Below are positions 1,731 to 11,386 of a DNA stretch of 34,414 nucleotides, piece by piece. A program made the translations under genes and the position numbers. Location: the NCBI GenBank assembly GCA_027083925.1, contig JALWMK010000159.1:1-34414 (forward strand), read 5' to 3'. How positions within the stretch are numbered: position 1 is the stretch's first letter; every line of letters starts with the position of its first letter. The notes below the pieces were generated by a model, which was given only the letters and a program-made list of their open reading frames with translations, had not been told where the DNA came from and searched no databases. The stretch is from Sedimenticola sp. (GTDB lineage Bacteria; Pseudomonadota; Gammaproteobacteria; Chromatiales; Chromatiaceae).

Positions 1731-3761
1731 ATGTCCATGGATCTTTCAGAATTTCTCGATGTATTTCTCGAAGAGTGTTTCGAGGGGCTGGAAGCCATGG
1801 AGTCAGGGCTGCTGCACCTGGATGCGGGTACGGATCTCGAGGAAATCAACACCATTTTTCGCGCAGCCCACTCTATTAAAGGCGGCAGCGCTGCCTTTGG
1901 TTTCAACCATATCTCTGAATTCACCCATGTAATGGAAACCCTGCTGGATGAGCTGCGCGACGGTTCCCGGCAGGTAGACGAAAATATCGTGGATCTGCTT
2001 CTGGCTTCGGTGGATATCCTGCGCGAGATGGTGGACGGACTGAAGGAGGAGAGCACTCCTGATGAAGTCCGTGTAGCCGAGTTGAAAAAGGCACTGGAAG
2101 CTGCACTGGGAAACCATTCAGAAGAATCTCCGGCAACTGGGGAACACCAGCTGTGGAAGATTCTTTTTTCCCCTTGCCCTGATCTGTTTCGTGAAGGCAA
2201 CGATCCTCTGCGCATCTTTGAGGCACTGGAGGAACTGGGCACACTAGAAGTTCAGACTGATGCATCCACCTTGCCACCCCTGTCAGCGCTGGATCCGGCT
2301 ACCTGCCACTTGCGCTGGGAAGCAATCCTGGAAAGCACTGCTACCGAAGAACAGATTCACGAAACCTTCAGCTGGGTGGAAGAAAACTGCGACCTGAAAA
2401 TCAGTCGAATTGAAGACAAAGGAGAGCAACCCCCGGTAGCCGAGAAAGAAACGAAAAAACAACCAGCGCCGGAAACACCCGCACCCGCCCCAAAACCAGT
2501 GGTAGCAGTCAAGGCAAAACCAGCCAAACCTTCCGCCAACCGGGAAAGCAGTTCTATCCGCGTAGCGATCGAGAAGGTGGATTTGCTAATTAACCTCATG
2601 GGTGAATTGGTCATCACCCAGTCCATGCTCAATCAGGTGGGACTGGATCTGGCCCAGGAAGGCGGACAAAAAGCTGAGGTTCTGCTCAATGGCCTGGCGC
2701 AACTGGAACGCAACACCCGTGAACTGCAGGAAAACATGCTGCAAATCCGCATGCTGCCCATCAGCGTCGCTTTCAACCGCTTTCCACGCCTGGTGCGCGA
2801 CCTGTGCGGAAAAATGGGCAAGAAGGTGGATCTGGTACTCAGCGGCGAGCAGACCGAGGTGGACAAGACCGTTCTGGAAAAGATCGGCGACCCGCTGGTG
2901 CATCTGGTGCGCAACTCCCTGGATCATGGCCTGGAAACATCCGAAGTGCGGGCCGCCAAGGGTAAGCCGGAACAGGGACGGCTGGAACTCAGCGCCCAGC
3001 ATGAAAGCGGCAACATCGTTATTCGCATTACCGATGACGGTGCCGGGCTGGATCGGGAAAAGATCCTGAAAAAAGCCATCGAACAAGGCCTGGTAAGCGA
3101 TAAGGACGAGCTGTCCGAAGAACGCATCGACAACCTCATCTTCCAGCCCGGATTTTCCACGGCGGAACAAGTCAGTGACCTGTCCGGTCGCGGCGTGGGC
3201 ATGGATGTGGTGAAACGCAATATCAGCGACCTGGGCGGCACCGTCAGCATTCAATCCCGCCAGGGCAAAGGCAGCACCGTAGTGATTCGCCTGCCCCTCA
3301 CCCTTGCAATTCTCGACGGCCAGCTCGCCAGCATCGGTGAGGACACCTATATCTTGCCCCTCATTTCCATCATCGAATCGTTGCAAATCCGCCCGGAAAA
3401 TCTCAAATGCGTTACCGGATCAACAGAGCTGTACCGCTTCCGAGATGAATATATTCCCGTCATGCGGCTCAACAAACTGCTTGGCAGCCAGTGCGGTACT
3501 GACAACCTGGATCAGGGACTGCTGGTAGTGGTGGAATCAGAAGGACAACACGCAGGCCTGTTCATAGACAAGCTGCAAGGACAACAGCAGGTGGTAATCA
3601 AAAGCCTGGAAGCCAATTTTCAGCAACTCGAAGGTGTATCCGGAGCAACCATCCTGGGCGATGGCAGGGTCGCCCTGATTCTGGATATTCCGGGGCTGGT
3701 TCAGCTCTTCCATAAAACCAGAAACTCCAACCCGGCAGCAGCGCTGGCTGCCGCTTCATGA
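1731..3761 (+). CDS. cheA: Chemotaxis histidine kinase CheA
   Basis: Cytoplasmic kinase of the receptor-CheW-CheA array that phosphorylates CheY and CheB; 676 aa. Domains in order: HPt domain (about 1-105) with phospho-acceptor His47 in AAHSIKGGSAAFGF; a central domain (about 140-226) in the place of the response-regulator-binding P2 domain; a Pro/Ala/Lys-rich linker (about 235-270); a dimerisation helix pair (about 272-340); an HATPase domain with the N box HLVRNSLDHGLE (391-402), the G1 box DDGAGLD (435-441) and the G2 box GRGVGMD (486-492); then a CheW-like P5 domain from about 527 to the end. All catalytic boxes are intact. First gene of the operon; its end overlaps cheW by 4 nt (ATGA). 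A second ATG at 1737 is an alternative start. Confidence 0.97.
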   Translation: MSMDLSEFLDVFLEECFEGLEAMESGLLHLDAGTDLEEINTIFRAAHSIKGGSAAFGFNHISEFTHVMETLLDELRDGSRQVDENIVDLLLASVDILREMVDGLKEESTPDEVRVAELKKALEAALGNHSEESPATGEHQLWKILFSPCPDLFREGNDPLRIFEALEELGTLEVQTDASTLPPLSALDPATCHLRWEAILESTATEEQIHETFSWVEENCDLKISRIEDKGEQPPVAEKETKKQPAPETPAPAPKPVVAVKAKPAKPSANRESSSIRVAIEKVDLLINLMGELVITQSMLNQVGLDLAQEGGQKAEVLLNGLAQLERNTRELQENMLQIRMLPISVAFNRFPRLVRDLCGKMGKKVDLVLSGEQTEVDKTVLEKIGDPLVHLVRNSLDHGLETSEVRAAKGKPEQGRLELSAQHESGNIVIRITDDGAGLDREKILKKAIEQGLVSDKDELSEERIDNLIFQPGFSTAEQVSDLSGRGVGMDVVKRNISDLGGTVSIQSRQGKGSTVVIRLPLTLAILDGQLASIGEDTYILPLISIIESLQIRPENLKCVTGSTELYRFRDEYIPVMRLNKLLGSQCGTDNLDQGLLVVVESEGQHAGLFIDKLQGQQQVVIKSLEANFQQLEGVSGATILGDGRVALILDIPGLVQLFHKTRNSNPAAALAAAS

Positions 3762-4300
3762 CCGAGGTCGAAGTACCCATGAACAGTAACACAGCACAAA
3801 AAATTGATATCGATCTGCAGTCTGAGGAAGGAGTGGATCAATACCTTACCTTCTGCCTGGCCGGAGAAGAATACGGCATCAACATTCTCAAGGTGCAGGA
3901 AATCAGAGGCTGGAGCGAGGTGACGCCCATGCCCAATACACCAGCTTCCATTCTCGGTGTAATCAATCTGCGCGGCACCGTGGTTCCCATCGTTGAATTG
4001 CGCAGCCACTTCAACCTGCCAGAAGTACCTCCCAGCCCGACCACAGTAATCATCGTGGTCAAAGCAGTGGAGGCCAACGGCAACCAGCGCACCATGGGCA
4101 TGGTGGTGGATGCGGTTTCCGAAGTACATAACATCGCCGCCGAAGAAATCCAGCCGCCCCCACAGATCGGTGAAGCAGGAGACCAGCGCGCTATTGCCGG
4201 TCTCACCACCATGGAACAACACATGATCATCCTCCTCGATGTGGATGACCTGATGATAAACGGCGTACTCGGCCTGCTCGACGACGAGTCCGGCGCCTGA
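3758..4300 (+). CDS. cheW: Chemotaxis coupling protein CheW
   Basis: A 180-aa CheW-domain protein that links chemoreceptors to CheA. The family core is clear: [38 protein letters not shown] and VVPIVELR, followed later by the [10 protein letters not shown] strand and, near the end, LLDVDDLM. The N-terminal 25 residues before the CheW fold are acidic and may be disordered. The start at 3758 overlaps the cheA stop by 4 nt, which suggests translational coupling; an in-frame ATG at 3779 would give a 173-aa form nearer to E. coli CheW in length. Second gene of the operon. Confidence 0.96.
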
Positions 4301-4335: not shown

Positions 4336-7056
4336 ATGAAAATCAATGAGCCAGTAACAGACAAAGAGATCGTGATGACGGAGGGGCAATTCATCGTCTC
4401 CACCACTGACCTCAAGGGCATCATCAAATCCATCAATCGTGATTTCATCAATATCAGTGGCTTCACATCCGAAGAGCTGATTGGCAGGAATCACAACATG
4501 GTGCGCCACCCCGACATGCCGCCGGAAGCCTTCGAGGATTTGTGGCGCACCATCAAGGCGGACAGGCCCTGGATCGGGATGGTAAAGAACCGTTGCAAAA
4601 ATGGCGACTACTACTGGGTCAAGGCCAATGTTACCCCTTTGCGTGAACACGGACGCACCACCGGCTTCATGTCGGTGCGCACCAAGCCCACACGCCAGGA
4701 AATCGAACAGGCCGATGCCCTGTACAAAAAAGTGCGTGCTGGTGAAGCCACCTTGCAACCATCACGCTTCAAGCGAGTCATGCAATACCTGGGCAATCTG
4801 GGAGTATCCAGGTATCTGACTTTGCTGCAAGTTGCGTCGGTATCCGCCATGGCGGGAATTGCCTGGCTGGACCGCCAGGGTGCCGACCTCTCCATCGTAA
4901 TCACGGCTTTTGCCGTGATTACAATCCTCATCTCCCTCTCCATCCATGCGCTCAAACAATACACCCAGCGCCCCATGAAGAAGGCCATCACCGCCATGCA
5001 GCAAATCGCCAACGGCGACTACTTTCAATGGGTCGAAACCAGCCGAGATGATGATCTGGGCCGGTTGTTGCAGAACATCCAGTCCACCCAGATCCGCCTC
5101 GGCTACGAAGTAAATGAAATACGGCAACAGGCAAATGAACTGAGCCGTGTGCAGGAAGCTCTGGAAAGCGTAAATGCCAACGTGATGATTGCCGACCAGG
5201 ATCTCAATATCATCTACCTGAACAAAGCCGTGAAGGAGATGATGCACAATGCCGAGGACGACATTCGCCAGGAACTTCCGGATTTCAGCAGTGACAAGCT
5301 GTTGGGTGCCAACATCGATGCATTCCACAAGAACCCATCTCATCAGCGGGAGGTATTGGAACGTTTGCAGGATGCCTTCACTGCCGACATCAAGCTGGGC
5401 GGGCACTCCATGCGCCTCATCGCCAATCCTATTCTCAATGAAAAGGGTGAACGCCTGGGAACCGTGGTGGAATGGATGGATCGCACCAGCGAGGTAGCCA
5501 TAGAACAGGAACTCCAGAGCATCGTCGACAACGCCCTCATGGGCAACCTGGACGAACGAGTATCACTGACCGGCAAGGAGGGATTCTTCAAGAACCTGAG
5601 CCGTGGCGTAAACGACCTGATGCAGGTGCTGGAGCAGGTGATTGACGATACATCCCAAGTCCTCAGCGCCCTGGCCAAAGGCGAACTGAACAAAACTATT
5701 GATACCGACTATGAAGGCGCCTTTGCCCGTCTCAAAGACGATGTAAATGCCACCATAACCAATCTGACGCGAGTGATTGGCAGCATCCGCCACAGCGCCG
5801 ACGCTGTCGAGCATGCCTCACAGGAAATCGCCGAAGGCAACACCGACCTGGCGCGCCGCACCGAACTGCAGGCCTCCAACCTGGAGGAGACCGCCTCCAG
5901 CATGGAAGAAATCACTTCCACAGTACGCCAGAATGCAGACAACTCACGCAAGGCCAGCGATCTGGCAGCCATTACCCTGGATCAGGCAGTGAATGGGGGG
6001 GAAGTAGTGACAAATACCATCACCGCGATGGAAAAAATCACCCACTCCAGCAAGAAAATCGCTGCCATCATCAGCGTCATCGACGATATCGCCTTCCAGA
6101 CCAATCTGCTGGCACTGAACGCTGCGGTAGAAGCAGCCCGGGCGGGCGAACAGGGCCGCGGATTCGCCGTGGTAGCCACCGAGGTACGCAACCTGGCACA
6201 ACGCAGTGCTACTGCGGCCAAGGAGATCAAGGAACTGATCGAAGACAGTGTAAACAAAGTGGAAGAAGGTTCTGAACTGGTAGATCAATCCGGCAAGACT
6301 CTGGACGAGATCGTCACTTCGGTGAAAAAAGTAAGCGATTTCATCACCGAGATTGCTGGCGCCAGCTCAGAGCAATATGCAGGCATAGACCAGGTAAACC
6401 AGGCAGTCTCACAAATGGACGAAGTAACCCAGCAGAATGCTGCGCTGGTTGAAGAAGCGGCACAAACCAGCCAGATGATGGACGAACAGGCCAAAGAGCT
6501 GGGCGAACTGATCTCCTTCTTCAGAATCGAAAACAGTTCTGGAGAAAACCAGAACCAGGTGGAGCGTCGCTCCGGCAACCGGCCCTGGTCTGGCGCCAGC
6601 GACACCTCAGCCGTGGATTTCGCCGCCGCCCGCGCCAAACACAAACAATGGAAAACCCGCCTGCGCGCCTTCCTCGATGGAAAAGAATCCATGAATGCAG
6701 AGGAAGCCAGCTCCCATCATGATTGCAAGCTGGGGCAATGGCTGCATGGCGTAGGCATGCGCGAATACGGCAGCTTGAGAAAAATGCAAGAGCTGGAAAA
6801 AGCCCATATGGAATTCCACGCTGAGGCCAAGCAGGTAATCGAGGCCAGGCAATCCGGAGACAATGCCAGGGCGGAAACCATGTACGCCCGTGTGGAAAAA
6901 GGCTCAGACCGCATCATCACCTTACTGGAGCAGCTGGAGCGGGAAATCGATACAGCCAACCCGCCCTCATCCCTTCCCGCCCCGGCTGGAAACAGCGCTC
7001 CGGCCAGGCCCAGGCTGCAGGCGGTAGGCACGGATGACGTGTGGGACGAGTTCTGA
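4336..7056 (+). CDS. Chemoreceptor with Aer-like PAS, second PAS, HAMP, CZB domain and xWxxF tail
   Basis: A 906-aa methyl-accepting chemotaxis protein. Order of parts: Aer-like PAS domain (about 15-120; segments [28 protein letters not shown]), which in Aer binds FAD and senses redox state; two close membrane segments (about 160-178 and 185-205) with almost no periplasmic loop; HAMP (about 206-260); a second PAS domain (about 270-385); a HAMP-like stretch (about 390-475); and the signalling domain with its hairpin tip at about 582-612. A chemoreceptor zinc-binding (CZB) domain follows (about 765-870), with His769, Cys797 in CKLGQWL, His824 and His828 in HMEFH. The protein ends in VWDEF, which fits the xWxxF tail that tethers CheR in other receptors. 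All sensing is therefore probably cytoplasmic. A weak AGGAG-like site, GGAGAA, precedes the ATG. Confidence 0.95.
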
Positions 7057-7058
7057 TC

Positions 7059-7346
7059 ATGAATGCCGGAAAAATATGCCTAGAGCCCCATCTGGACATG
7101 GATGCATTGCCAGCTCTGGCGCAGGCACTGCGCGATGCTCTGGCGGAAAAAGCGCCACTGTCGCTGGATGGCTCCCTGGTGAAGAGCATCAATGGCGCCG
7201 CCTTGCAACTACTGCTGGCGGCAACCCGGTCTGCACAACAGGCAGGCATTCCATACAGCTGGCATCAACCCTCTCCCGCCCTGGAAAGAGCAGTTTCACT
7301 TTTGGGGCTCAACAATGATCTGGAATTAGGGGACAACAAGGAATGA
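7059..7346 (+). CDS. STAS-domain protein of the chemotaxis operon
   Basis: A 95-aa single STAS domain (anti-sigma-factor-antagonist/MlaB-like fold). The segment APLSLDGSLVKSINGAALQLLLAA matches the strand-loop-helix that in SpoIIAA-type proteins carries the phosphorylated serine (DSSG); here the aligned position is Asn45 (SING), so it probably cannot be phosphorylated there. Small STAS proteins are common in gammaproteobacterial che clusters, but their role is not settled. I chose the ATG at 7059, two bases after the receptor stop; a GTG at 7041 in the same frame would overlap the receptor gene. The end overlaps the cheR start by 4 nt. Confidence 0.85.
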   Translation: MNAGKICLEPHLDMDALPALAQALRDALAEKAPLSLDGSLVKSINGAALQLLLAATRSAQQAGIPYSWHQPSPALERAVSLLGLNNDLELGDNKE

Positions 7347-8200
7347 ACCGTTTGGCACAAAAAGCCCGGCGTCAGGGATTCGAGTTTACCGATCAGGATT
7401 TTTCCCGGCTGCGGGAACTGGTTTACCAGCATACCGGCATCCGCATGGCAGAGAACCGGCGCGATTTGATCTATGGACGCCTTTCCCGGCGGCTGCGGGC
7501 TTTGGACATGCACAGTTTCAGTGACTATTGCAAGCTCATCGAGAATGGCCATGGGGATGAGCTGGAAGCCTTCACCAACGCTGTCACCACCAATTTGACC
7601 GCCTTCTTCCGCGAAGCCCACCACTTCGACTATCTGGCCAACACCGTACTGCCGGAACTGTTGAAGCGCAAGCGGGAGAATCCGCGTCTCCGGATCTGGT
7701 CTGCAGGCTGCTCCACAGGTGAAGAACCCTACACCCTGGCCATGATACTGCGGGAAAACATTCCCGACATACACAACTGGGATGTACGCATCCTCGCCAC
7801 CGATCTCGATTCCGATGTGCTTGCCAAGGCCAGCGCGGGGATCTATGAGCAGCAGAACATCCAGCGTGTCCTGGGTGAACGCCTCAAGCGCTGGTTCCAC
7901 AAGGGAAGCAGAACCCACAAGGGCAAAGCCAAGGTGCTCCCGGAGCTGCAGGAACTGATCTCCTTCCGGAAACTCAACCTGATGGAAAGCTGGCCCATGA
8001 AAGGCCCGTTCGACATCATTTTCTGCCGCAATGTGCTGATCTATTTCGACAAACCCACACAAAAAAAATTGTTTGAGCGTTTTGCCGCCATTCTGGATCC
8101 AAAGGGACATCTTTTCATCGGACATTCCGAAAGCCCTCTGGATCTCACCGACAAATTCGCCCTCATCGGCCAGTCGATCTATCAGCGGAGCAAACAGTGA
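7343..8200 (+). CDS. cheR: Chemoreceptor glutamate O-methyltransferase CheR
   Basis: Transfers methyl groups from S-adenosylmethionine to receptor glutamates during adaptation; 285 aa, the usual length. The N-terminal all-alpha domain (about 1-85) is followed by [12 protein letters not shown] and the SAM-binding motif [18 protein letters not shown] (about 117-134). Later landmarks are the LATDLD loop and the [13 protein letters not shown] segment near the C-terminus. It overlaps the STAS gene by 4 nt (ATGA). Because the operon's receptor ends in a CheR-tether-like VWDEF, this CheR may be of the tail-binding kind, but I cannot confirm that from its beta-subdomain by eye. Confidence 0.97.
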
Positions 8201-8225: not shown

Positions 8226-9368
8226 ATGAGCATACGCGTTCTTGTCATCGATGATTCGGCACTGGTGCGCAACCTGCTGACACGCATTCTGGAAAAAGAC
8301 CCGCAAATCCAGGTGGTCGGCACTGCAGCAGACCCGTACATCGCCCGGGAAAAGATCAAGAAACTGCGCCCCGATGTACTGACCCTGGATGTGGAAATGC
8401 CAAAAATGGATGGCATCACCTTCCTGGAGAATCTCATGCGCCTGCACCCCATGCCGGTGATCATGGTTTCGTCCTACACCGAAAAGGGCGCTGAAATTAC
8501 CCTGCGGGCGCTGGAGCTGGGCGCCATCGACTTTGTCAGCAAACCCCTGGGAGATCTTGCCAACTCCCTGGAGACGGTGAGCAAAGAGATTATTCACAAG
8601 GTAAGAACCGCCAGCCAGGCAAATATCCGTGCCGCTGGCCACGCCCGCCCCGCCTCGCCCCTGTCCACAGAAGAAAAACTGAGTGTGGACTCCATCCTCC
8701 CCAAGCCAAACAAGCAGCGCACCAATGGCGCACTGCCCCTGATTGCCATCGGCGCCTCCACTGGCGGCACGGAAGCGATCAAGGAGGTGCTGCTGGGGCT
8801 GCCGGAAAAAATGCCGGCGATTGTCATTACCCAGCATATTCCCCCCGGATTCAGCACCGCTTTCGCCAAGCGCATGAATCGGTTAAGCGTACTGACAGTT
8901 CACGAAGCAGAAGATGCTCAGCCCATCATTCCAGGCCATGTCTACATTGCCCCAGGCTCTCAGCACCTGTTAATCGTTCAGGACAAACAGGGATATCGCT
9001 GCAAACTCAACGACGGGCCACCGGTTAACCGGCACAAACCAGCAGTAGACGTACTCTTTCGCTCAGTAGCCCAAACCGCCGGAAGAAATGCCACTGGCAT
9101 ACTTCTTACCGGCATGGGAGATGACGGCGCCCGATCGTTGCTGGAAATGCGCGAGGCCGGCGCCAGAACCATTGCCCAGGACGAAGAAAGCAGCGTGGTC
9201 TGGGGCATGCCGGGCGCCGCAATCAAACGCGGCGCGGCGGAACAGGTTCTAGCGCTGGAAAAAATCCCTTCGGCACTCATCTATCTGCTTGCCGGCAAGG
9301 GAAAAACCATTCACAACACCAACAGCCTGCGGCAACGCCAGATGGCCGCAGCACCTTCTTTTTCATAA
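8226..9368 (+). CDS. cheB: Chemoreceptor glutamate methylesterase/deamidase CheB
   Basis: Removes receptor methyl groups and deamidates receptor glutamines when phosphorylated by CheA; 380 aa. The N-terminal receiver has Asp9/Asp10 (VIDDSALVR), phospho-acceptor Asp55 ([10 protein letters not shown]) and Lys106 (SKPLG). After a linker (about 125-170), the methylesterase domain carries the catalytic triad: Ser178 (GASTGGTEA), His204 (TQHIPPGFS) and Asp300 (TGMGDDG), with the same spacing as E. coli CheB. The same frame is open further upstream, into cheR, but the ATG at 8226 is preceded by a GGAGGAG site and starts exactly at the receiver domain. There is no cheD beside it. Confidence 0.97.
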
Positions 9369-9389: not shown

Positions 9390-9752
9390 ATGAATATCAT
9401 GGTAGTAGATGACAGCCTCGCAATGCGCCTTATCGTCATGAAAACCTTGCGCGAAGCCGGTTATTCCGGCCACGACATCACCCAGGCGGCAGATGGCGCA
9501 AAAGCACTGGAAGCCATCAAGGAAGAGGAACCGGATCTGGTGCTTTGCGACTGGAACATGCCCAACATGACCGGCCCGGAATTGCTGGAAACCCTCAAGG
9601 ACGAAGGCTACAACCTCAAATTCGGATTCATAACCACAGAAGCATCCGAGGAAATGCGCGCCAAGGCCGCCGAGCTTGGGGCGCGCTTCCTCATTGCCAA
9701 ACCCTTTACTCCAGAATCCTTCAAGGAAAAACTGGATCCCTATCTCAACTAA
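9390..9752 (+). CDS. cheY: CheY-type chemotaxis response regulator
   Basis: A 120-aa stand-alone receiver domain. Acidic pocket Asp7/Asp8 (VVDDS), phospho-acceptor Asp54 (LCDWNMPNMTG), switch Thr at 82/83 (GFITTEAS) and Lys104 (IAKPF) are all present, as expected for a protein that binds the flagellar switch when phosphorylated by CheA. AGGAG lies 9 nt before the ATG. It lies between cheB and the 162-aa CheX-like candidate. Without sequence comparison I cannot exclude that it acts as a phosphate sink rather than as the motor-binding CheY. Confidence 0.93.
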   Translation: MNIMVVDDSLAMRLIVMKTLREAGYSGHDITQAADGAKALEAIKEEEPDLVLCDWNMPNMTGPELLETLKDEGYNLKFGFITTEASEEMRAKAAELGARFLIAKPFTPESFKEKLDPYLN

Positions 9753-9764
9753 GGAGCAACCACC

Positions 9765-10253
9765 ATGTCCAGCATCCCATTACCAAAACCCGTCGAGTTG
9801 CAACAGATGCTCGCCATGATGTACGGCAGCGACCTGAAAGCCGAACCCGGCAGCCCGGTTCCCGTCACACCCGGCAGCAAATCCCTGGTAGCACTCTACA
9901 TCGACGACGATGATGCACCTGTGGCCACCTGTGCCGTGGATTACCCCTTTACCGCCTATGCCGGCGCATCCCTGACCCGGGTTCCCTTGGGCACGGCCAA
10001 GGAATGCGCACGAGACGGGGATTTTTCCGAGATCATGGTCGGTAACGTGCACGAAATCATGAACATCTGCTCCCGCCTGCTGATGACAAGCGACAGCCCG
10101 CATCTGCGTCTGCAAGCGCTGTATGCATCCCCGGACGAAATACCGGAAAACGTACAGGAGCTGATGCAGCAGCCACCCGCCAGCGCCGATTTCAACGTCA
10201 CCATTGCAGATTATGGTGACGGGGGCATGTCGTTCATGTCTCTGGTTGCGTAA
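9765..10253 (+). CDS. Unrecognised 162-aa protein; candidate CheC/CheX-type CheY-P phosphatase
   Basis: Last gene of the chemotaxis operon, 12 nt after cheY with an AAGGAG site before the ATG, so almost certainly co-expressed with it. I do not recognise the protein as a whole. It has no signal peptide or membrane segment, so it is probably cytoplasmic. One segment stands out: VHEIMNICSRLL has Glu97-x2-Asn100, followed after 22 residues by Pro123 (YASPDE). The CheC/CheX/FliY phosphatase signature is [D/S]-x3-E-x2-N-x(21-22)-P, so the Glu, Asn and Pro fit, while the leading D/S is Gly93. With no cheZ in the window, a phosphatase for CheY-P is a reasonable inference. It could also be an unrelated CheY-associated protein. 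Confidence 0.75.
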   Translation: MSSIPLPKPVELQQMLAMMYGSDLKAEPGSPVPVTPGSKSLVALYIDDDDAPVATCAVDYPFTAYAGASLTRVPLGTAKECARDGDFSEIMVGNVHEIMNICSRLLMTSDSPHLRLQALYASPDEIPENVQELMQQPPASADFNVTIADYGDGGMSFMSLVA

Positions 10254-10300: not shown

Positions 10301-11386
10301 CTACAGCACGGCCTTCGGGTAGGAACCCAGCACCTTGTACATTCCTGCTTGCTTTTCCAGCGCAGCAAGCGCCTGTTCGACATGGGCTTCATCCTTGTGG
10401 CCATCCACATCGATGAAGAATACATAGTCCCATACGCCGCGCCGGGAAGGGCGGGATTCGATGCGGGTCATGCTCACACCGTGTTTCGCCAGGGGTTCCA
10501 GCAAACGGTGCAGGCCACCCGCCTCGTTCTTGGTGGAGATGAGCAGGCTGGTCTTGTCCTGTCCGGAAGGCGGCACCTGCTGCTGGCCAATAATGAGAAA
10601 GCGGGTGGTGTTCCCCGGCTCATCTTCAATATTGTGCACAAGCACACCCAGATGGTAGATTTCCCCGGCAGTTTCGCTGGCAATGGCTGCCGTATGAGGA
10701 TCTTCACGAGCCATGGCCGCAGCCTCGGCATTGCTACCCACTGCAATGCGCTCTACATGGGGCAGGTTCCGATCCAGCCAGCCCCGGCACTGTGCCAGAG
10801 ACTGCTGGTGGGAATACAGTCTCTCAATCTTTCCCAAAGATCCGGCATTGGAGAGCAGGTTGTGATGGATGCGCAGGGTCACTTCCCCGCAGATGCGCAG
10901 GGGCGAGCTGAAAAACATATCCAGGGTATGGCTGATCACGCCTTCAGAGGAGTTCTCCACCGGCACCACGCCATACTGGCAGTTACCTGCTTCCACTTCC
11001 TGAAACACATCGGAAATAGAACCCAAAGGCGTCGTGGTAACAGAATGCCCGAAGTGCTTGAGCGCCGCCGTCTGGGTAAAGGTGCCTTCCGGGCCAAGGA
11101 AGGCAATATTCAGGGGATACTCCAGGGCGAGGCAGGCGGACATGATTTCCCGGAACAGCCTCGCCATTTCTTCTGCATTCAGCGGCCCCTGGTTGCGCTC
11201 CTTGACCATGCGCAGTATCTGGGCTTCGCGCTCGGGACGGTAAAAAACCGTCTCACCGCTGCTCTGTTGCTTGATATGGGCAACTTCCGTCGCCGCTGTC
11301 GCCCGAGCATTGATGAGGTGCTGAATCTGCTCGTCAATGGCGTCGATACGTTCGCGGATGGCGTTGAGTCGTTCCGTTTCACTCAT
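10301..11386 (-). CDS. pheA: Bifunctional chorismate mutase / prephenate dehydratase
   Basis: P-protein of phenylalanine synthesis: chorismate to prephenate, then prephenate to phenylpyruvate; 361 aa, the usual size. An AroQ-type chorismate mutase domain (about 1-85; ERIDAIDEQIQHLI) is followed by the prephenate dehydratase domain (about 92-270) with IAFLGPEGTFTQ, VVPVENSSEGVI and the NTTRFLIIG segment containing the catalytic TRF motif. The C-terminal ACT domain includes ESRPSRRGVWDY, the family's ESRP phenylalanine-binding motif, so feedback inhibition by phenylalanine is expected. Its ATG lies 4 nt downstream of the serA stop, so it is the third gene of a serC-serA-pheA operon. Confidence 0.97.
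   Translation of the reverse strand: MSETERLNAIRERIDAIDEQIQHLINARATAATEVAHIKQQSSGETVFYRPEREAQILRMVKERNQGPLNAEEMARLFREIMSACLALEYPLNIAFLGPEGTFTQTAALKHFGHSVTTTPLGSISDVFQEVEAGNCQYGVVPVENSSEGVISHTLDMFFSSPLRICGEVTLRIHHNLLSNAGSLGKIERLYSHQQSLAQCRGWLDRNLPHVERIAVGSNAEAAAMAREDPHTAAIASETAGEIYHLGVLVHNIEDEPGNTTRFLIIGQQQVPPSGQDKTSLLISTKNEAGGLHRLLEPLAKHGVSMTRIESRPSRRGVWDYVFFIDVDGHKDEAHVEQALAALEKQAGMYKVLGSYPKAVL

Follow-up and report, generated by a model that had tools for sequence, protein, structure and literature searches.

Organization of the che operon

The window, that is, the whole 34,414-nt stretch of DNA from Sedimenticola sp. herein analysed, carries a set of chemotaxis genes that were identified by Pfam in the order cheA-cheW-mcp-STAS-cheR-cheB-cheY, followed by a gene for a 162-aa protein (Table 1). 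The sequence-only reading of this DNA had placed a 162-aa reading frame after cheY, and the frame is indeed located there, starting 12 nt past the cheY stop codon (9752). Since an AAGGAG sequence overlaps this stop codon at a distance of 8 nt before the ATG, we consider the gene to be the last of the che operon; no terminator-like sites were found between 9200 and 10500, and the next long ORF starts at 10301 on the opposite strand. Response_reg is absent among the Pfam matches of cheA up to E 10. A STAS gene between the chemoreceptor and cheR was detected here and in several related operons.

Table 1. Coordinates of the genes and sequence features in the window
Feature	Position	Strand	Basis
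162-aa protein gene, unnamed family, CheC/CheX/FliM fold, putative CheY-P phosphatase	9765..10253	+	ORF, predicted fold, homologs
Coding region for the putative catalytic helix (residues 89-106)	10029..10082	+	DSSP of model; conservation
N94 codon	10044..10046	+	
E97 codon	10053..10055	+	
N100 codon	10062..10064	+	
AAGGAG, Shine-Dalgarno-like; shares bases with the cheY stop codon and precedes the ATG by 8 nt	9751..9756	+	direct reading
cheY, presumed substrate, single receiver domain	9390..9752	+	Pfam Response_reg 1.2e-25
cheB	8226..9368	+	Pfam and NCBIfam
cheR	7343..8200	+	Pfam
STAS-domain protein, within the operon	7041..7346	+	Pfam STAS_2 1.2e-15
Chemoreceptor with PAS, HAMP, MCPsignal and CZB domains	4336..7056	+	Pfam
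cheW	3758..4300	+	Pfam
cheA without receiver domain	1731..3761	+	Pfam Hpt, H-kinase_dim, HATPase_c, CheW

In the genome that contains the window, estimated to be 98.8% complete, no cheZ was found, the operon having already been noted to lack it, and neither CheX nor CheC gave any match. FliM matches were located at the edges of two contigs other than that of the window, probably representing one split gene, and two MCP-signal matches were detected.

An unnamed protein family

The gene had been described as unrecognised, and this description holds: neither Pfam nor NCBIfam assigned the protein to a family, and it was unrecognised by PHROGs too. The same was true when the family members were scanned singly, 18 against Pfam and 20 against NCBIfam, weak and scattered matches aside; none of the 18 matched CheX or CheC, and no chemotaxis model appeared among the NCBIfam matches of the 20. 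For the 162-aa protein itself, Pfam gave no match to CheZ (PF04344), FliM (PF02154) or a SpoA/FliN-type second domain. The HcgB matches in two of the 18 members (best E 0.00089) and an AAA_lid_14 match of the 162-aa protein (E 0.26) were taken as chance.

Homologs were identified in 11 of 55 relatives, 10 of which belong to the window's genus (15 genomes, with that of the window itself counted). At the class level, 16 of 369 genomes carry a homolog, and these 16 represent 9 GTDB families. At the phylum level, 398 genomes gave four matches: the window's own, one in G466, a copy fused to another domain (G642) and a weak one (G489). The 14 loci on named contigs carry the labels Sedimenticola, Thiolapillus, Thiotrichales or Gammaproteobacteria. 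In addition, a copy annotated as 'hypothetical protein' lies on plasmid CP099603.1 (Comamonadaceae), where a response-regulator gene and further che genes adjoin it; in this plasmid-borne operon (L111) a 153-aa hypothetical protein is encoded at 8390-8851, between the family gene and a second response regulator. One metagenome-assembled genome (G014) contains two family copies (L004/L015 and L012/L018), 81% and 78% identical to that of the window, possibly reflecting a mixed bin. Among the listed matches from titles and abstract beginnings of the open PMC literature, none names the family, which does not imply its absence from print.

Conserved residues of the family

The sequence-only reading had recognised in this protein E97, N100 and P123, spaced as in the CheC/CheX/FliY motif [D/S]-x3-E-x2-N-x(21-22)-P, with G93 in place of D/S. 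All four residues are present as stated, but the Pro and D/S parts turned out not to be family features when we aligned 20 diverse sequences (alignment A5), including that of the window and 19 others with 22-72% identity to it. From the family alignments G642, G489 and near-duplicates were left out, and L041 and L073 were included in A5 alone. Both E97 and N100, of which the conservation in homologs had been proposed as a test, are retained in 20 of the 20 sequences, down to 22% identity, together with invariant P74, L116, Y150 and G151; a 21st sequence, that of plasmid CP099603.1, likewise has both the E and the N. N94 is conserved in 19 sequences of A5, while P123 is found in 8 and column 93 is occupied by E (7), G (6), D (4) or A (3). 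Neither the Pro match nor the view of G93 as a substitution of D/S thus stands as an element of the signature. As judged from this alignment, the true family signature is E-x2-N, better written as N-x2-E-x2-N, and not [D/S]-x3-E-x2-N-x22-P. For comparison, an alignment of 28 CheX proteins (A4), composed of 27 from the 30 CheX loci plus the CheX of G335 and derived nearly all from the class-level survey, shows no variation at the four classical motif positions D, E, N and P.

The 162-aa protein contains a single E-x2-N, and DSSP of the predicted model places both E97 and N100 on helix 89-106, in which N94, E97 and N100 form a polar stripe amid mostly hydrophobic positions. The motif string as such was rejected as proof, because E-x2-N-x(21,22)-P was present in 3.0% of 20,000 shuffles of the protein (E-x2-N alone in 17.8%) and because the Pro is not conserved.

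Predicted fold

An AlphaFold2 model constructed from the window protein and 13 homologs gave pLDDT 93 and pTM 0.88. In the Foldseek search against PDB, the first 28 matches were solely chains of CheX, CheC, FliY, CheC-like or FliM/flagellar-switch proteins, 12 of them at E <= 0.001, and the top rank was occupied by the CheX-CheY-BeF3 complex of B. burgdorferi (E 2.7e-5). By VIA, Z values were 13.6 for the FliM middle domain, 10.8 for CheC, 10.5 for CheX and 10.2 for FliY; all 27 CheC/CheX/FliY/FliM matches showed Z of at least 8.7, and the next match was REV7 at 3.7. The Rev7/Mad2 matches (Z 3.7 and below) were taken as background. The fold, which had been proposed as another test, is thus predicted by AlphaFold2, Foldseek and VIA to be CheC/CheX/FliM-like. 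Two of the structural observations were counted against the reading as a CheX-like phosphatase: the Foldseek TM-scores are moderate, ranging from 0.34 to 0.63 over these 28 matches, and VIA ranks FliM middle domains highest, and not CheX. FliM middle domains are not known to act as phosphatases. Taken together, the gene represents a family that is real, conserved and without a name, with an invariant E-x2-N dyad and a fold predicted to be CheC-like.

Sequence-level relationship to CheX

Search of PDB sequences with the protein, and then with its profile, detected no homology to CheX. Direct comparison with CheX by hhalign gave E 0.2 and a score of 13.7, which was equalled or exceeded by 23 of 100 column shuffles and was lower than that of the reversed alignment (15.5); the alignment sets the E-x2-N of the family and that of CheX in register, at a score within the shuffled background. 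CheX homology by sequence was therefore rejected after the Pfam, NCBIfam and PDB searches and this hhalign result. We make no sequence claim, given the shuffled background and the higher score of the reversed alignment; our claim is that of the same fold and the same dyad, and not membership in the CheX sequence family, because the sequence profiles show no link.

One locus of G489 (L075, 1210-2472) encodes a 421-aa frame after cheR-cheY, carrying an E-x2-N and a CBS domain, in which a weak match to the family (3.2e-4) overlaps a CheX match below the Pfam cut-off (0.0035). This frame is suggestive of a possible bridge between the family and CheX, as far as such weak matches can indicate.

Association with a distinct group of CheY

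A scan of 41 loci with the che proteins of the window as queries left, once they had been reduced by contig name and length, 28 distinct loci of the family; to these come the fused copy (L074) and the weak match (L075). The sequence-only reading had asked whether homologs always follow cheY. This is the case for 27 of the 28 distinct loci, where the first recognised gene upstream on the same strand is cheY, and fails for G222, where the neighbour is a divergent chemoreceptor gene; at L022, about 465 bases separate cheY and the family gene. The CheY proteins paired with the family share the sequence FGF(V/I)TTE in 24 of 25 cases, as does the CheY of plasmid CP099603.1, and the fused CheY carries VGFVTTE. 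Phylogenetic comparison of the 25 paired CheYs with 20 CheZ-linked CheYs and with the 6 CheX-linked CheYs found near the 30 CheX loci grouped the paired CheYs into one clade with 99/95 support. The CheZ-linked set was drawn from 18 of the 153 genomes with CheZ, picked by hand and mostly high-ranking in the list, and from G017 and G024.

The CheY of the window carries, besides FGF(V/I)TTE, the residues D7, D8, D54, T82 and K104, with N56 at D+2 and E84 at T+2. These seven residues match those of E. coli CheY, and we presume that they play the same roles by this homology. Self-dephosphorylation of E. coli CheY is slow enough to require CheZ.

Distribution of the family relative to CheZ and CheX

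CheZ, CheX and CheA were searched in the same 369 class-level genomes as the family. For the cross-table, CheA was taken at E <= 1e-10, giving 186 genomes (of 236 at E <= 1e-3), and CheZ at E <= 0.001, giving 153 genomes, of which 151 exceed the curated cut-off and four (G044, G096, G126 and G153) lie outside the CheA set. All 16 family genomes are CheA-positive. The anti-correlation with cheZ, suggested earlier as a check, was observed, CheZ being present in none of the 16 family genomes versus 149 of the 170 remaining CheA-positive ones (Fisher 2.5e-13, without correction for phylogeny); the family count does not stem from one clade, since the 16 genomes belong to 9 GTDB families. The 15 genomes of the window's genus contain no CheZ over the cut-off, with one sub-threshold match in a 963-aa frame, and five of them (G001, G003, G005, G011 and G012) also lack the 162-aa family. 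Within the window's family (f1), CheZ exceeds the cut-off in seven of 16 genomes from other genera (G017, G018, G021, G024, G025, G026 and G030); the 162-aa family is absent from all 16, and nine have neither.

CheC was not found in the 14 family genomes searched (G335 left out). CheX is present in 3 of the 16 family genomes without mutual exclusion (Fisher p 0.27), which was also counted against a CheX-like reading. In G335 (L040/L081), CheX and the family gene occur in one operon in the order cheR-CheX-cheY-family. The lack of CheZ does not require the 162-aa family, since 21 CheA-positive class-level genomes have neither; nine of these have CheX, and the other 12 gave no match to CheZ, CheX or the 162-aa family. 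The avoidance of CheZ may reflect an inherited type of chemosensory system rather than the replacement of a single enzyme. At a locus of G642 (L074, 940-1917), a CheY receiver is fused to a copy of the family domain that has lost both dyad residues, E and N, and CheZ is present; in G466 the E and N are intact and CheZ gave no match. The contrast between these two genomes fits the pattern as an illustration, not as proof.

Proposed role of the 162-aa protein

The best explanation of these observations, to which we assign a probability of roughly 80%, is that the 162-aa protein is the CheY-P phosphatase of its chemotaxis system, representing a new divergent family that works in a CheX-like manner. 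Phosphatase activity is what we infer here, together with the contact, the chemistry and the phenotype. Both CheX (ExxN) and CheZ (DxxxQ) are described to need an acidic residue plus an amide for placing the attacking water on phospho-CheY (PMC3510030), and for CheZ and CheC/CheX/FliY the inserted acidic side chain is described to bridge the receiver lysine, the amide of CheX being Asn99 (PMC3035606). By analogy, the single CheC-like-fold domain would lay its long helix 89-106 against the phosphorylated receiver of the CheY encoded by the adjacent gene, Glu97 would form a bridge with the conserved lysine of CheY (K104), and the water attacking the phospho-aspartate (D54) would be held by Asn100, both as in CheX, so that the protein would take the part played by CheZ in E. 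coli. Because of the CheX-like fold, the two key residues and the failure to find CheZ, the family is probably the missing off-switch of its CheZ-less hosts. Against this reading count the unconserved [D/S] and Pro positions, the lack of detected sequence homology to CheX, the CheX gene within the family operon of G335, and G222, in which the family gene does not adjoin cheY. A phosphate sink via a receiver on CheA, a design discussed for phosphatase-less genomes (PMC10782961), was rejected for this locus; it is not obviously applicable, since the CheA of the window has no receiver match in Pfam.

A FliM-like or CheC-like adaptor would bind CheY-P without hydrolysis, for CheY localisation, as a motor-side decoy or in other Che regulation. 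The proximity of FliM middle domains in structure (Z 13.6), the separate CheX within the family operon of G335 and the persistence in G642 of a degenerate CheY-fused copy devoid of E and N all agree with such a role, but plain binding does not obviously need E97 and N100, which are invariant in 20 sequences down to 22% identity, and the family tracks the absence of CheZ; we therefore regard an adaptor as unlikely. Still less probable is a phosphatase of CheC-like fold with another receiver as its main target, either CheB or an unlinked regulator: the operon's CheB likewise contains a receiver, and specificity is unreadable from sequence here, but the upstream cheY at 27 of 28 distinct loci, the common CheY clade and the natural CheY fusion point to the adjacent CheY. 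Chance occurrence of the motif within an unrelated small protein, conceivable from the 3.0% of shuffles carrying the string and the poorly conserved P123, is ruled out by the fold matches of Foldseek and VIA and the invariance of E97 and N100, unless the model is wrong.

Beyond the preferred reading of a CheX-like CheY-P phosphatase, we entertain a more speculative one, rather doubtful at this stage, in which CheZ and CheC/CheX/FliY would be joined by this family as a third lineage of CheY-P phosphatases, closest in fold to FliM middle domains and marked by a separate signature, N-x2-E-x2-N, and by a CheY subfamily dedicated to it. The family would then serve as the off-switch of CheZ-less Gammaproteobacteria, and a FliM-like ancestor may have given rise to its active site.

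In flagellated Gammaproteobacteria, some chemotaxis systems without CheZ are seemingly devoid of an off-switch under the standard models, and the 162-aa family provides a candidate in 16 of the 369 class-level genomes, in 9 GTDB families. E97 and N100 make a two-residue prediction that is testable in vitro. A protein resembling CheY-P phosphatases can escape profile searches even directly beside cheY, and the counts of systems 'without a phosphatase' may therefore be too high.

Comparison with known systems

With CheZ (PF04344) the 162-aa protein shares the proposed job, the shut-off of CheY-P. CheZ is an all-helical dimer, whereas the 162-aa protein is predicted to be alpha/beta of CheC type, and it differs from CheZ also in the absence of a PF04344 match and in the lack of genome overlap (0/16). 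The motif of CheZ is given as DxxxQ (PMC3510030). FliY (T. maritima 4hyn), described as forming one response-regulator phosphatase family together with CheC and CheX (PMC3035606), resembles the 162-aa protein in fold (Z 10.2), but the latter has no matched SpoA/FliN-type second domain and is encoded within a che operon. The likeness to CheC (PF04509; T. maritima 1xkr and 2f9z) lies in the fold (Z 10.7-10.8) and in E-x2-N. CheC has two E-x2-N sites, in contrast to the one of the 162-aa protein, and its Pfam model matched 0 of 18 family members.

Closest in fold is the FliM middle domain (Z 11.5-13.6). FliM is a part of the motor with further domains, whereas the 162-aa protein is a single domain without FliM Pfam match, belongs to a che operon and has invariant E97 and N100. 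CheX (PF13690; B. burgdorferi 3hzh and T. maritima 1xko) resembles the 162-aa protein in fold (VIA Z 9.0-10.5; first rank in Foldseek), in the possession of one E-x2-N and in the location of its gene among other che genes. The family differs from CheX in the absence of a CheX Pfam match and of any profile link, in having N at E-3 and neither the D at E-4 nor the Pro at N+22 of CheX as conserved features, and in its linked CheYs, which form a clade of their own.
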